64,000 nt of DNA, from NCBI RefSeq assembly GCF_039535785.1, contig NZ_BAAAXV010000005.1, positions 744,001 through 808,000 on the forward strand. Direction: 5' to 3'. The stretch's first letter is position 1. Each line of letters begins with the position of its first letter. A model generated the notes under the pieces. It searched no databases. It saw only the letters and a program-made list of their open reading frames with translations, and was not told the DNA's origin. Shown piece by piece: positions 25,743 to 29,666 of this stretch. Both the position numbers and the translations under genes were made by a program. This stretch comes from Nonomuraea helvata (GTDB taxonomy: Bacteria; Actinomycetota; Actinomycetes; Streptosporangiales; Streptosporangiaceae).

Positions 25743-26720
25743 TTACGAGAAGTAGCGCTTCGGGTTGAACACCAGCATCTGCTCAATCTGGTCGTCGGTC
25801 ACACCCGAGTCCAGCAGTGCGGCCAAGACATCGTCGTGAATGTGATCGTAGCGCCAGTTCGGTGCGAGCGTTGAGCGGGCCTCGTCCCAGGCGCCGCCGA
25901 AGTAGTCCATGAAGCAGGCGGTGTCGTGGCTGAGGACCATGCGGTCGGCGTATCCGCGCTGGCAGAGCGCCGCGACCGTGGCCACCCGCTGAGCCGTCGA
26001 GTTGTACGCGTCCAGGCCGAACCGGTCCATTCCCAGCGTCGCGCCGGTGTCGGCCAGGCGCATGAGGTAGTCGAGGTCGTTGCTGTCGCCCGCGTGCCCG
26101 ACCACCACCTTCGCCAGGTCCACGCCTTCCTTGGCGAACAGGTCGAGCGCGATCAGGCCGCTCTGCGTGAAGGCGTTCGTGTGGACGGTGATCGGCGCGC
26201 CGGTGCGCACGTGCGCCTGCGCGACGGCCCGGCAGATGCGCTCGACGCCGGGCGTCAGGCCCTTCTGCTCCACCACGCACTTCAGGAACGCGGCCTTCAC
26301 GCCGGTGTCGGCGATGCCCTCCGTCAGGTCACGGACGAAGTCGTCGATCATCGGCTCCGGCATGTCGAGGAACAGGCCGGGGCCCCGGTGCGCGTACTGG
26401 TGCGGCAGCTCCTCGAAGGCGTAGACGCCGGTGGCGGCGATGATGTTCAGGCCGGGCACCTGCTCGGCGACGCGCTGGATGCGCGGGATGTACCGGCCGA
26501 GGCCCCACACCGTCGGGTCGACGATCGTCCGCACGCCCTTCGCGACCACCGCGTCGAGCTTGGCGACCGCGTCCGCCACGCGGTACTCCTCGTCCCACCA
26601 GGCACCTTTGCCGTAGTTGTCCAGGTGCTCGGTGGAGAGCACGAACACGTGCTCGTGCATGAGCGTCTGCCCGAGCCGGTCGACGTCCACAGGTCCGCGG
26701 ACGGTGTCGACAGTGGGCAT
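25743..26720 (-). CDS. Phosphotriesterase-family metal hydrolase
   Basis: A 325-residue PTE/lactonase-like barrel. The metal ligands are visible: HEHVF (HxH), a carboxylatable Lys in AAFLKCVVEQKG, HTNAF, VVGHAGDSND and LSHDTACF. Family members hydrolyse lactones or phosphotriesters. The ATG at 26720 has GGAGG upstream. It follows metG by 59 nt on the same strand, so it may belong to the same transcript. The native substrate is probably a lactone (family knowledge). Confidence 0.88.
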   Translation of the reverse strand: MPTVDTVRGPVDVDRLGQTLMHEHVFVLSTEHLDNYGKGAWWDEEYRVADAVAKLDAVVAKGVRTIVDPTVWGLGRYIPRIQRVAEQVPGLNIIAATGVYAFEELPHQYAHRGPGLFLDMPEPMIDDFVRDLTEGIADTGVKAAFLKCVVEQKGLTPGVERICRAVAQAHVRTGAPITVHTNAFTQSGLIALDLFAKEGVDLAKVVVGHAGDSNDLDYLMRLADTGATLGMDRFGLDAYNSTAQRVATVAALCQRGYADRMVLSHDTACFMDYFGGAWDEARSTLAPNWRYDHIHDDVLAALLDSGVTDDQIEQMLVFNPKRYFS

Positions 26721-26779
26721 GAGCGCCTCCGTACCGACTGGGCTGTAGGCGCTCAACCTAGGCTCGTCCACGGCCTCCG

Positions 26780-28192
26780 TCAACCACCTGCCCCGGCGCG
26801 GGCGAGCCGCCGGAACAGCGGCTCCGGGCCGGGCAGCCGCTCACCGCGCACCGCCGCGGCCACACGCGCCGCCGCGGTCGGCAGGAAGGGCTCGAGCTGT
26901 ACGGCCAGCTCCCGGCAGGCGCGCACCAGCGTCCCCAGCGAGACCTCCTGCTGGGCCCGCGTCTGACGCCACGGCTGGGTGCGCTCGACGTACTTGTTGG
27001 CCTCCTCGACGAGCGCCCACACGGCCACCGCCGCCCGCCGGAAGTCGAACGCCTCCAGCGCCTCGTCCACCGACACCTCGACGAGCGCCTCCCCGTCGGC
27101 GGGCACGTGGCCGTCCAGGAAGCGGTGGACCATGGTGACGACCCGGTTGACCAGGTTCCCCAGCCCGTTGGCCAGGTCCTCGTCGGCCCTGGCGACCAGC
27201 CGTTCCTCGGTGAAGTCGGCGTCGCCCACGCGCGGCACCTCGCGCAGCAGCCACCACCGCACGGCGTCGACCCCGTACGCGTCGACGAGCGCGAGGGGGT
27301 CGGCCGCGTTACCCGCCGACTTGCTGATCTTCCGGCCGTCCACCGTGAGGTAGTCGTGCACGAAGATCCCCGTGGGCAGCGGCTCCCCCGCGGACAGCAG
27401 CATCGCGGGCCAGTAGACCGCGTGGAACCGGATCACCCCCTTGCCCATCAGGTGCACCTTGCGCGGCTCGGCGACCCACCAGCGGTCGTAGTCGTCGCCT
27501 TCGAGCGCGGTGACGTAGTTGGCCAGCGCGTCCCACCACACGTACACCACCTGGCTCGGGTCGCCGGGCACCGGGATGCCCCACCCGCGGGCCCGTGCGG
27601 CGGACCGCGAGATGCTGATGTCGCCCAGCCCCGCCTCGATGAACGCGAGCACCTCGTTCCGGCGCGCGACGGGCTCGATCCTGAGCCGTCCCGAGCGGAT
27701 GAGCTCGCTCAGGGCGTCCTGGTACCGGGAGAGGCGGAAGAACCAGTTCTCCTCGGACACGTGCTGCAACGGCGCCTCATGCCCGTCGGGGCAGGGGCCT
27801 TCCTGGTAGAACTGCTCGCAGCCCACGCAGTAGAGCCCCTCGTAATGCCGCTGGTAGAGGTCGTGCCGCGTGGCCTCCCAGATCCGCTCGACCCCGGCGC
27901 GGTGCCCGGCGTGGGCGCTCGTCCGGATGAACGAGTCGAACGACAGGTCCAGCGGCCCCCTCAGCCCCTCGAACGCGGCCGCGTTCCTGTCCACCAGCTC
28001 CCGCACCGGCACGCCCTCCGCCTCGGCGGCCAGCACGTTCTTCAGCGAGTTGTCGTCGGTGCCCGTCTGGAACCGCACCGGCTCGCCCCGCCGCCGATGG
28101 TGCCTGGCCAGCACGTCGGCCTGCACCAGCTCCAAGGCGTACCCGACGTGGGGGCGGGCGTTGACGTAGGGGATGGTCGTCGTGATGTACAT
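26780..28192 (-). CDS. metG: Methionyl-tRNA synthetase, short form
   Basis: A 470-residue class I synthetase with the HIGH-like PYVNARPHVGYA, a zinc knuckle (CVGCEQFYQEGPCPDGH), the anticodon-proximal WWDALANYV and the KMSKS-type loop GRKISKSAGN. It lacks the C-terminal tRNA-binding domain and is short for an actinomycete MetRS, so it could be a second, specialised copy. The start has GGAGG with a 6-nt spacer. Upstream lie a Met-rich leader peptide and a hairpin, suggesting control by methionine charging. Confidence 0.92.
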   Translation of the reverse strand: MYITTTIPYVNARPHVGYALELVQADVLARHHRRRGEPVRFQTGTDDNSLKNVLAAEAEGVPVRELVDRNAAAFEGLRGPLDLSFDSFIRTSAHAGHRAGVERIWEATRHDLYQRHYEGLYCVGCEQFYQEGPCPDGHEAPLQHVSEENWFFRLSRYQDALSELIRSGRLRIEPVARRNEVLAFIEAGLGDISISRSAARARGWGIPVPGDPSQVVYVWWDALANYVTALEGDDYDRWWVAEPRKVHLMGKGVIRFHAVYWPAMLLSAGEPLPTGIFVHDYLTVDGRKISKSAGNAADPLALVDAYGVDAVRWWLLREVPRVGDADFTEERLVARADEDLANGLGNLVNRVVTMVHRFLDGHVPADGEALVEVSVDEALEAFDFRRAAVAVWALVEEANKYVERTQPWRQTRAQQEVSLGTLVRACRELAVQLEPFLPTAAARVAAAVRGERLPGPEPLFRRLARAGAGG

Positions 28193-28225
28193 CGGTTGCC
28201 TCCAAAGGGGCCCCGAACACGACGA

Positions 28226-28248
28226 GAGGCCCCGGGTCGCAGGGCCTC
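28226..28248 (-). terminator. Attenuator-like hairpin between Met leader and metG
   Basis: On the minus strand GAGGCCC (28248-28242) pairs with GGGCCTC (28232-28226) around a 9-nt loop. Flanking CGACG and CGTCG could extend it. It lies after the leader stop codon and before the metG ribosome site, where a ribosome-controlled terminator would be. A CCCCCTAGGGGG palindrome (28270-28281) spanning the leader stop codon could form a competing structure. Confidence 0.6.
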
Positions 28249-28273
28249 AACAAGACGTCGCCGGTGAAACCCC

Positions 28274-28315
28274 CTAGGGGGCCATCATCACCAGGCAGGC
28301 GGTCATGACGCTCAT
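28274..28315 (-). CDS. Methionine-rich leader peptide of metG
   Basis: A 13-residue reading frame, MSVMTACLVMMAP, has a near-ideal ribosome site (GGAGG at 28328-28324, 8-nt spacer). Four of 13 residues are Met, including a tandem MM near the end. It sits 81 nt upstream of metG, in the 163-nt gap after the APC permease. This is the architecture of amino-acid leader peptides that sense charged tRNA through ribosome stalling. Assignment as an attenuator is inference. Confidence 0.65.
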   Translation of the reverse strand: MSVMTACLVMMAP

Positions 28316-28355
28316 GCTAACGGCCTCCGGCCCGCCCGGGCCACCCATATCGGCG

Positions 28356-29666
28356 TCAGCGCGCGGCACGGTGGCGTATCAGCCACACCGCCAGGCCGAC
28401 CGCGAAGACCGTGAGCCCGGCGAGCACCGATGTCAGAGGAAGTGTCGCCGCCAACAGCGCGCACAGCGCCAGCCCGACCACCGGGACGAGCCTCGGCGGC
28501 GCGCCCTCGCCGGGGCCGAGCGTGAGCGCGCACGCGTTGGCGATGCCGTAGTAGACCAGCACGCCGAACGACGAGAACCCGATCGCCTCCCTCAGGTCGG
28601 CGACCAGCAGCAGCACGATCACCGCGCCCCCGACCGCCAGCTCGGCCCGCCGCGGCACCTGGTGCACCGGATCCACCACGGCCAGCACGCCGGGCAGGTC
28701 GCGCTCGCGCGCCATGGCCAGCACGGTGCGCGAGACGCCGAGCAGCAGCGCCAGCAGCGCGCCCAGCGCCGCCGCCGCGGCGCCGATCCCCACCACCGGC
28801 ACCAGCCACGCGGCCCCGGCCTCCCTGGCGACCTCGGCCAGCGGCGCCGGGGACCTGGCCAGCAGGAACGGGCCGAGCGCGCGCAGCGCGGCCAGCGCGA
28901 CCAGTGTGTAGACGACGAACGCGATGCCCAGCGCGATGCCGACGGCCCGTGGGATCGTGCGGGCCGGATCTCGCACCTCCTCGCCGAGAGTGGCGATCCT
29001 GGCGTAACCGGCGAACGCGAAGAACAGCAGCCCGGCCGCCTGCAGCACGCCCCACACATCGACGTGCTCCGGGCCGAGCGGGGTGAACCCGAGGTCGTGC
29101 CGCGCCTTGGCGAGCTCAGGACCGTACTCGGAGAGCGGCGCGTAGACGAACCAGCCGAACGTGACCGTGTTGTCGCCGAACAGCCCCGCGACCACCACCG
29201 CGGCGAGCACGGCCAGGACGAACACCACGATCACCTTGGCGAACCCCGCCGAGCGCCGCACGCCGTACACGCTGAGCGCGGTCAGCGCGGCCACGGCGCC
29301 GACGGCCAGGGGCCGCGCCAGCTCAGGGGCGACGTACGCGCCGAACGTGAGGGCCATCGCCGCGCACGAGGCGGTCTTGCCGACCGTGAAACCCCAGCCC
29401 GCCAGGTAGCCCCACAGCGGGCCGAGCCGCCGCCTGCCGTAGACGTAGGTGCCGCCCGACTCCGGGTAAAGAGCGGCCAGCCGCGCCGAGGAGGTGGCGT
29501 TGCAGTAGGCCACGACGGCGGCGAGCGCGAGCGCGAGGAGCAGCCAGTGGCCCGCGGCGCCCGCGGCGGGCGCGAACGCCGCGAACACGCCCGCGCCGAT
29601 CATCGCGCTCAGGCCCACGACGACCGCGTCGGTGGTGCCGAGCCGCCGCGACAACTCCTCGGCCAC
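28356..29666 (-). CDS. APC-family amino acid permease
   Basis: A 436-residue, roughly 12-helix transporter. The first helix has the APC motif VGLSAMIGAGVFAAF, followed by the family region YPESGGTYVYGRRRLGPLWG and GEEVRDPARTIPRA. It imports amino acids or amines by proton symport. A GTG start follows GGGGGAGG. It lies upstream of the Met leader and metG on the same strand, so methionine is a reasonable but unproven substrate. Confidence 0.88.
   Translation of the reverse strand: MAEELSRRLGTTDAVVVGLSAMIGAGVFAAFAPAAGAAGHWLLLALALAAVVAYCNATSSARLAALYPESGGTYVYGRRRLGPLWGYLAGWGFTVGKTASCAAMALTFGAYVAPELARPLAVGAVAALTALSVYGVRRSAGFAKVIVVFVLAVLAAVVVAGLFGDNTVTFGWFVYAPLSEYGPELAKARHDLGFTPLGPEHVDVWGVLQAAGLLFFAFAGYARIATLGEEVRDPARTIPRAVGIALGIAFVVYTLVALAALRALGPFLLARSPAPLAEVAREAGAAWLVPVVGIGAAAAALGALLALLLGVSRTVLAMARERDLPGVLAVVDPVHQVPRRAELAVGGAVIVLLLVADLREAIGFSSFGVLVYYGIANACALTLGPGEGAPPRLVPVVGLALCALLAATLPLTSVLAGLTVFAVGLAVWLIRHRAAR

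Follow-up and report, generated by a model that had tools for sequence, protein, structure and literature searches.

A predicted methionine-codon attenuator upstream of an auxiliary methionyl-tRNA synthetase gene in Nonomuraea helvata and other actinomycetes

The window analyzed here is a 64,000-nucleotide stretch of the Nonomuraea helvata genome (contig NZ_BAAAXV010000005.1, positions 744,001 to 808,000). Its minus strand carries metG (window positions 26780 to 28192), which codes for an auxiliary methionyl-tRNA synthetase (MetRS) of 470 amino acids that matches TIGR00398 with 383.9 bits (cut-off 336.35) and also PF09334. As in TrpRS1-type systems, the genome has a second gene for the same synthetase, located at G000:C9:3028799-3030359, and its frame is broken in the assembly. 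This other MetRS gene is split over two frames beside a run of six A nucleotides (L002:1500-1505, G000:C9), perhaps through a sequencing error. If the loss is real, the gene in the window would be the sole intact MetRS gene of the genome.

Among PDB entries, the window enzyme is matched better by 7wpi (E 1.3e-88), which we take to be the type 1 MetRS of S. aureus, than by 1qqt (E 5.7e-44), presumably the type 2 enzyme of E. coli. The existence of two MetRS types is described in the accessible text of PMC9071491. Because the genome has a second MetRS gene and the window enzyme is closer to 7wpi than to 1qqt, we call the window gene auxiliary. MetRS proteins of the window type (at least 76% identity) are encoded in 38 of the 54 genomes of the genus sample, N. 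helvata included. A third MetRS type, with 40-42% identity, occurs in nine genus genomes (L048-L056) and has no Met leader.

Upstream of metG is a short open reading frame that carries tandem Met codons. The first-pass annotation placed this frame at 28315-28274 on the minus strand, with 13 codons encoding MSVMTACLVMMAP before the stop codon, and credited it with an excellent ribosome site. The frame exists, but the upstream regions of relatives indicate that the start that is kept is the second ATG (28306), 9 nucleotides downstream of the first. The conserved frame (28274 to 28306) therefore has 10 codons, encodes MTACLVMMAP followed by a stop, and is putatively leaderless. At loci such as L017 and L029, reading from the first ATG yields only MTA and a stop codon. 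The GGAGG that precedes the first ATG is not kept among relatives when the alignment is judged by eye, and the ribosome site proposed for that ATG is not supported. Met codons 7 and 8 (28283 to 28288) constitute the proposed stall site and have tandem in-frame counterparts in 100 of 132 loci.

The first ATG instead lies inside a -10-like box, TAGCAT (28314 to 28319), which is positioned 7 nucleotides ahead of the conserved start. The distance from TANNNT to the start is 6 or 7 nucleotides in all 78 matches of either scan described below, where TANNNT was required by both and 4-9 nucleotides (family scan) or 5-8 nucleotides (named-loci scan) were allowed. A sigma-70 consensus promoter scan of positions 28150-28420 found nothing, and thus the promoter assignment rests on conservation. 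Given this spacing and the placement of the first ATG within the box, the leader is probably leaderless, with an mRNA that begins at or beside its AUG.

The frame was sought across relatives with a rule comprising TANNNT, 4-9 nucleotides, a start codon, and an ORF of 6-40 codons, from which the Met-richest frame was chosen. In the family to which N. helvata belongs, 78 of 85 auxiliary-MetRS loci carry a frame with at least one internal Met codon, 62 have at least two, and 61 have a tandem pair. For the Nonomuraea group, a genus sample that also includes Thermoactinospora, an internal-Met frame is present at 37 of 38 loci (two Met codons in 28, one in 9). The scan finds the leader at 41 of 47 loci from other genera of the family, and inspection by eye adds Met-Met frames at L106 and L080 but does not locate a leader at L068, L087, L102 or L105. 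Six additional family genomes lay outside the scan, one of which (L108) has a Met-Met frame by eye. At the N. basaltis locus (L019 and L140), which is near a contig end, unrelated sequence in the first 205 bases replaces the leader through its stop codon.

Beyond the family, 27 genomes of the class matched the enzyme at 57% identity or more, a set that leaves out four genomes at 43-46% identity. A locus was available in 24 of the 27, and 23 of these have the frame by scan; L134 also has one by eye, and for L115 the start chosen by the scan differs from that chosen by eye. Many of these loci carry 3-4 internal Met codons. When named loci were examined, the frame was present in 78 of the best 80 of 478. 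The two exceptions are the cut N. basaltis locus (L140) and L205, which has a frame by eye but a poorer -10 box. The named set spans Streptomyces, Streptacidiphilus, Micromonospora, Phytohabitans, Saccharothrix, Kribbella, Actinomadura, Planomonospora and Streptosporangium, and the family, class and named sets overlap in that many named contigs are from the same genomes.

The first-pass annotation had proposed attenuation by Met codons ahead of metG, to be judged by whether these codons are lost when the gap between the permease and metG is compared across relatives. They are kept while the remaining codons of the peptide vary, both within the genus and far outside it, and the leader part of the alignment has gaps of 12 and 3 nucleotides upstream of the Met codons. 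Over 132 loci, internal AUG triplets occur at 0.139 per codon in frame versus 0.002 out of frame, a contrast that is inflated because the frames were selected for Met content.

A frame of just 10 codons could arise by chance within a conserved promoter region. However, when the identical rule was applied to 1700 dinucleotide shuffles, 0.7% had a frame with at least one internal Met codon and none had two. This result and the spread of the frame over several families make a chance origin next to negligible in our estimation. An internal-Met frame was missing ahead of all ten MetRS genes examined from outside the auxiliary type, namely one canonical gene and nine third-type genes. At the sequence level, a predicted leader frame with codons for the cognate amino acid is present.

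The RNA between the leader start and metG can be modeled as a chain of three hairpins, all on the minus strand. P1 (segments 1:2; 28254 to 28304) spans the leader frame and has five pairs that changed on both sides among 36 sequences. Its 3′ arm, segment 2 (28260 to 28273), is proposed to capture segment 3 while a ribosome is held up at the Met codons. P2 (segments 3:4; 28226 to 28248) is the GC-rich hairpin that had been noted as preceding metG, and both hairpin and gene are present as described; 99.4% of its cells are paired in the 36 sequences. P3 (segments 5:6; 28193 to 28215; 92.4% of cells paired in the same set) covers the metG Shine-Dalgarno sequence, GGAGG, which is read directly from the sequence at 28199 to 28203. 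Segment 5 (28207 to 28214), GGGGCCCC, has two possible partners, namely segment 4 and the arm that holds the ribosome site. The window leader taken alone has an ordinary folding energy (z -0.69).

For the three hairpins together, 92.0% of cells pair in the 36 sequences and six pairs changed on both sides, with a covariation score that was reached by none of 500 shuffles. RNAalifold, applied to a MAFFT alignment, gave 16 pairs of which just one changed on both sides, a low covariation that we attribute to P1 shifting register between species; the helices were defined from per-sequence folds after this result. In arm-swap permutations, which ignore relatedness, none of 2000 was as good as the own arms for P1, P2 or P3 with 49 representatives, and 1, 2 and 186 of 2000 were as good, respectively, with 13 representatives. 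P1 and P2 covary, whereas P3 is not upheld by the smaller set. The alternative 2:3 pairing has no lineage-specific covariation by the same measure (672/2000 with 49 representatives and 978/2000 with 13). The 4:5 pairing gave 0/2000 at first and 37/2000 with other segment borders (49 representatives), and 438/2000 with 13. For the control pairings 2:4, 3:5 and 2:6, own arms were no better than swapped arms among the 49 representatives.

A covariance model search of the genus genomes, conducted with strict filters, gave a single match in every one of the 38 gene-bearing genomes, 36 of which had supplied training sequences. Among the 16 genus genomes that lack the gene, there was a single weak match (G021:C2:408530-408630, E 0.005). 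When applied to the window, 20 of the 31 Nonomuraea-group loci and all 49 other named loci, the model recovered 22 of the 49 upstream of metG at E values of 0.01 or below. Pairing of the metG ribosome site exceeds 0.5 at 110 of 131 loci. It is stronger than in controls with shuffled flanks at 81 of the 131, but within the Nonomuraea group at only 12 of 29.

A known riboswitch or T-box might instead sense methionine, SAM or tRNA directly, with the small frame being incidental. Such elements govern methionine genes in other bacteria, according to the accessible portion of PMC1262725. However, no Rfam family reached its gathering score in the window and the codon frame itself is conserved, which leaves this option very remote.

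The arrangement of Met codons and hairpins most probably reflects a ribosome-mediated attenuator through which the level of charged methionine tRNA governs a backup MetRS. We propose that the mRNA begins at or near the AUG of the 10-codon frame, such that the first ribosome would load without a ribosome site. When Met-tRNA is ample, this ribosome would reach the stop codon, segment 2 would be masked or released, and P2 and P3 could form, whereby P3 would cover the metG ribosome site and turn the gene off. When Met-tRNA is scarce, the ribosome would pause on the Met codons and keep P1 open, and computed folds predict that segments 2:3 and 4:5 then pair, which might free the metG ribosome site. 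The spare MetRS would restore charging, for example when an inhibitor blocks the usual enzyme or when that enzyme is limiting.

We modeled this switch by folding leaders with a ribosome whose edge was assumed to lie 12 nucleotides beyond the first base of the A-site codon. There were 142 leader loci, some from repeated genomes; the metG start and ribosome site were identified in 138, and P2 was found by pattern in 132. Capture of segment 3 (the 5′ arm of P2) by upstream RNA exceeds 0.5 at all 132 loci when the ribosome sits on the first internal Met codon, compared with 123 on the last Met codon, 20 at the stop codon and 27 without a ribosome. The corresponding counts are 31, 29, 6 and 8 for 31 representatives, and 29, 29, 12 and 1 for 29 Nonomuraea-group loci. 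In the window, segment 3 pairs with upstream RNA at 0.98 when the ribosome is stalled, 0.63 when it is at the stop codon and 0.55 when the RNA is free.

The 4:5 pairing behaves similarly, exceeding 0.5 in 129 of 131 loci with segment 3 taken versus 28 of 131 with segment 3 free. However, capture of segment 3 stays above 0.5 at 121 of 132 loci when segment 2 is shuffled, with a median of 0.59 versus 0.84 for the real segment, and a shuffled segment 5 retains 4:5 pairing at 0.61 versus 0.85. Since shuffled versions of both segments also pair well, much of the pairing is due to base composition. Ribosome position matters, yet capture itself is largely a matter of composition. Removing segment 3 did not free the ribosome site in equilibrium folding (the median unpaired value moved from 0.21 to 0.24, with a rise in 43 of 135 loci), and therefore the proposed release step would require folding during transcription.

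The output of the predicted attenuator might be exerted on translation, as the hairpin over the ribosome site suggests, and we give this form nearly an even chance. The same Met-codon sensor might instead act on transcription in the manner of trp attenuators, with P2 as a terminator, the 2:3 pairing as an antiterminator and P3 as incidental, which we regard as a plausible but minority view. P2 is the best-kept helix, capture of segment 3 by segment 2 would suit an antiterminator, a run of four U nucleotides lies within 14 nucleotides of P2 in 11 of 132 loci, and the tails are richer in U than the leaders (0.24 versus 0.18). In contrast, the longest U-run is two or fewer in 103 of 132 loci, no terminator-like site was found in positions 28150-28420 of the window, and P3, which covers the ribosome site of metG, is conserved as well. 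Termination at 28226-28248, as envisioned by the first-pass annotation, is thus uncertain, and occlusion of the ribosome site by P3 provides an alternative.

Another possibility is that the leader is a leaderless upstream ORF that merely loads ribosomes, which then reinitiate at metG, and that its Met codons sense nothing. The accessible text of PMC4833913 indicates that reinitiation from leader genes may raise translation, and the leader stop and the metG start are separated by 81 nucleotides in the window. This proposal leaves unexplained why internal Met codons are kept, why divergent leaders hold the number that they do, and why P1 forms over them, and hence we find it improbable.

Under the preferred attenuation model, the leader could be a two-input sensor that responds to initiator Met-tRNA through its leaderless start and to elongator Met-tRNA through the tandem codons. 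Both charged tRNAs are products of the type of enzyme that the leader would control. A spare MetRS of different build would then be switched on when the housekeeping enzyme is attacked, which would mean that actinomycete communities contain natural inhibitors of MetRS. This extension is speculative, and we consider it rather unlikely.

No methionine attenuator appeared among the matches listed for literature on methionine and synthetase attenuators, a search whose scope mostly excluded subscription journals. Among known systems, erm-type translational attenuators consist of a hairpin chain in which the last hairpin holds the ribosome site, and they respond to drug-induced stalling. The metG leader resembles them in its predicted hairpin chain, the last member of which would cover a ribosome site, whereas stalling here would be caused by amino-acid shortage.

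Among analogues, the auxiliary TrpRS1 comes nearest in function, and leaderless polycysteine frames come nearest in form. Vecchione and Sello reportedly described an attenuator for the auxiliary TrpRS1 of Streptomyces coelicolor, in which a leader rich in Trp codons acts through transcription attenuation. Both cases appear to pair an additional synthetase gene with a leader in which the cognate codon is abundant, although the amino acid is Trp there and Met here, and transcription attenuation (as reported) and inhibitor resistance are features of TrpRS1. The available part of PMC9437257 states that this enzyme resists indolmycin.

Polycysteine leaderless short ORFs of mycobacteria were described by Canestrari et al. 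2020, as cited in the accessible text of PMC9094748, after an earlier proposal that appears in the corresponding text of PMC4633059. These share with the metG leader a leaderless short frame, cognate codons and an effect on the downstream gene (leaderless start and effect being predicted in our case), but their amino acid is cysteine instead of methionine, and the present leader precedes a synthetase gene and is associated with three conserved hairpins. In the accessible portion of PMC1262725, trp, trpS, leuS, ilvB and cys leaders are reported for Actinobacteria, but none for methionine operons, which are also said there to have no conserved RNA structure. The classical trp-operon, trpS and leuS attenuators of Streptomyces and Corynebacterium covered in that portion likewise combine cognate codons with alternative hairpins. 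However, the trp attenuators are described there as having poly-U terminators, unlike the site in the window.

We conclude that the Met leader preceding auxiliary metG probably represents a new form of ribosome-mediated attenuation. Methionine is an odd case for sensing by a leader peptide, as each translation start also needs Met-tRNA. If the model is correct, a conserved methionine attenuator could be used as a reporter for Met-tRNA charging, leaderless sensing frames would extend past mycobacteria and cysteine, and many actinomycetes would possess an inducible spare copy of MetRS, which is an antibiotic target.

The genes flanking metG differ among lineages. The first-pass annotation envisioned a methionine-related operon that includes the upstream APC permease gene, and we rejected this arrangement. 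Within 3 kb upstream, 23 of 31 Nonomuraea-group loci have an APC homologue on the same strand, and the 49 other loci have none; contig ends truncate some of the Nonomuraea-group loci. In the window, the -10-like box is situated downstream of the permease gene. A gene of the phosphotriesterase family (25743-26783, minus strand) lies downstream of metG. Such a gene follows metG at 28 of the 31 loci of the Nonomuraea group and at none of the 49 other loci.
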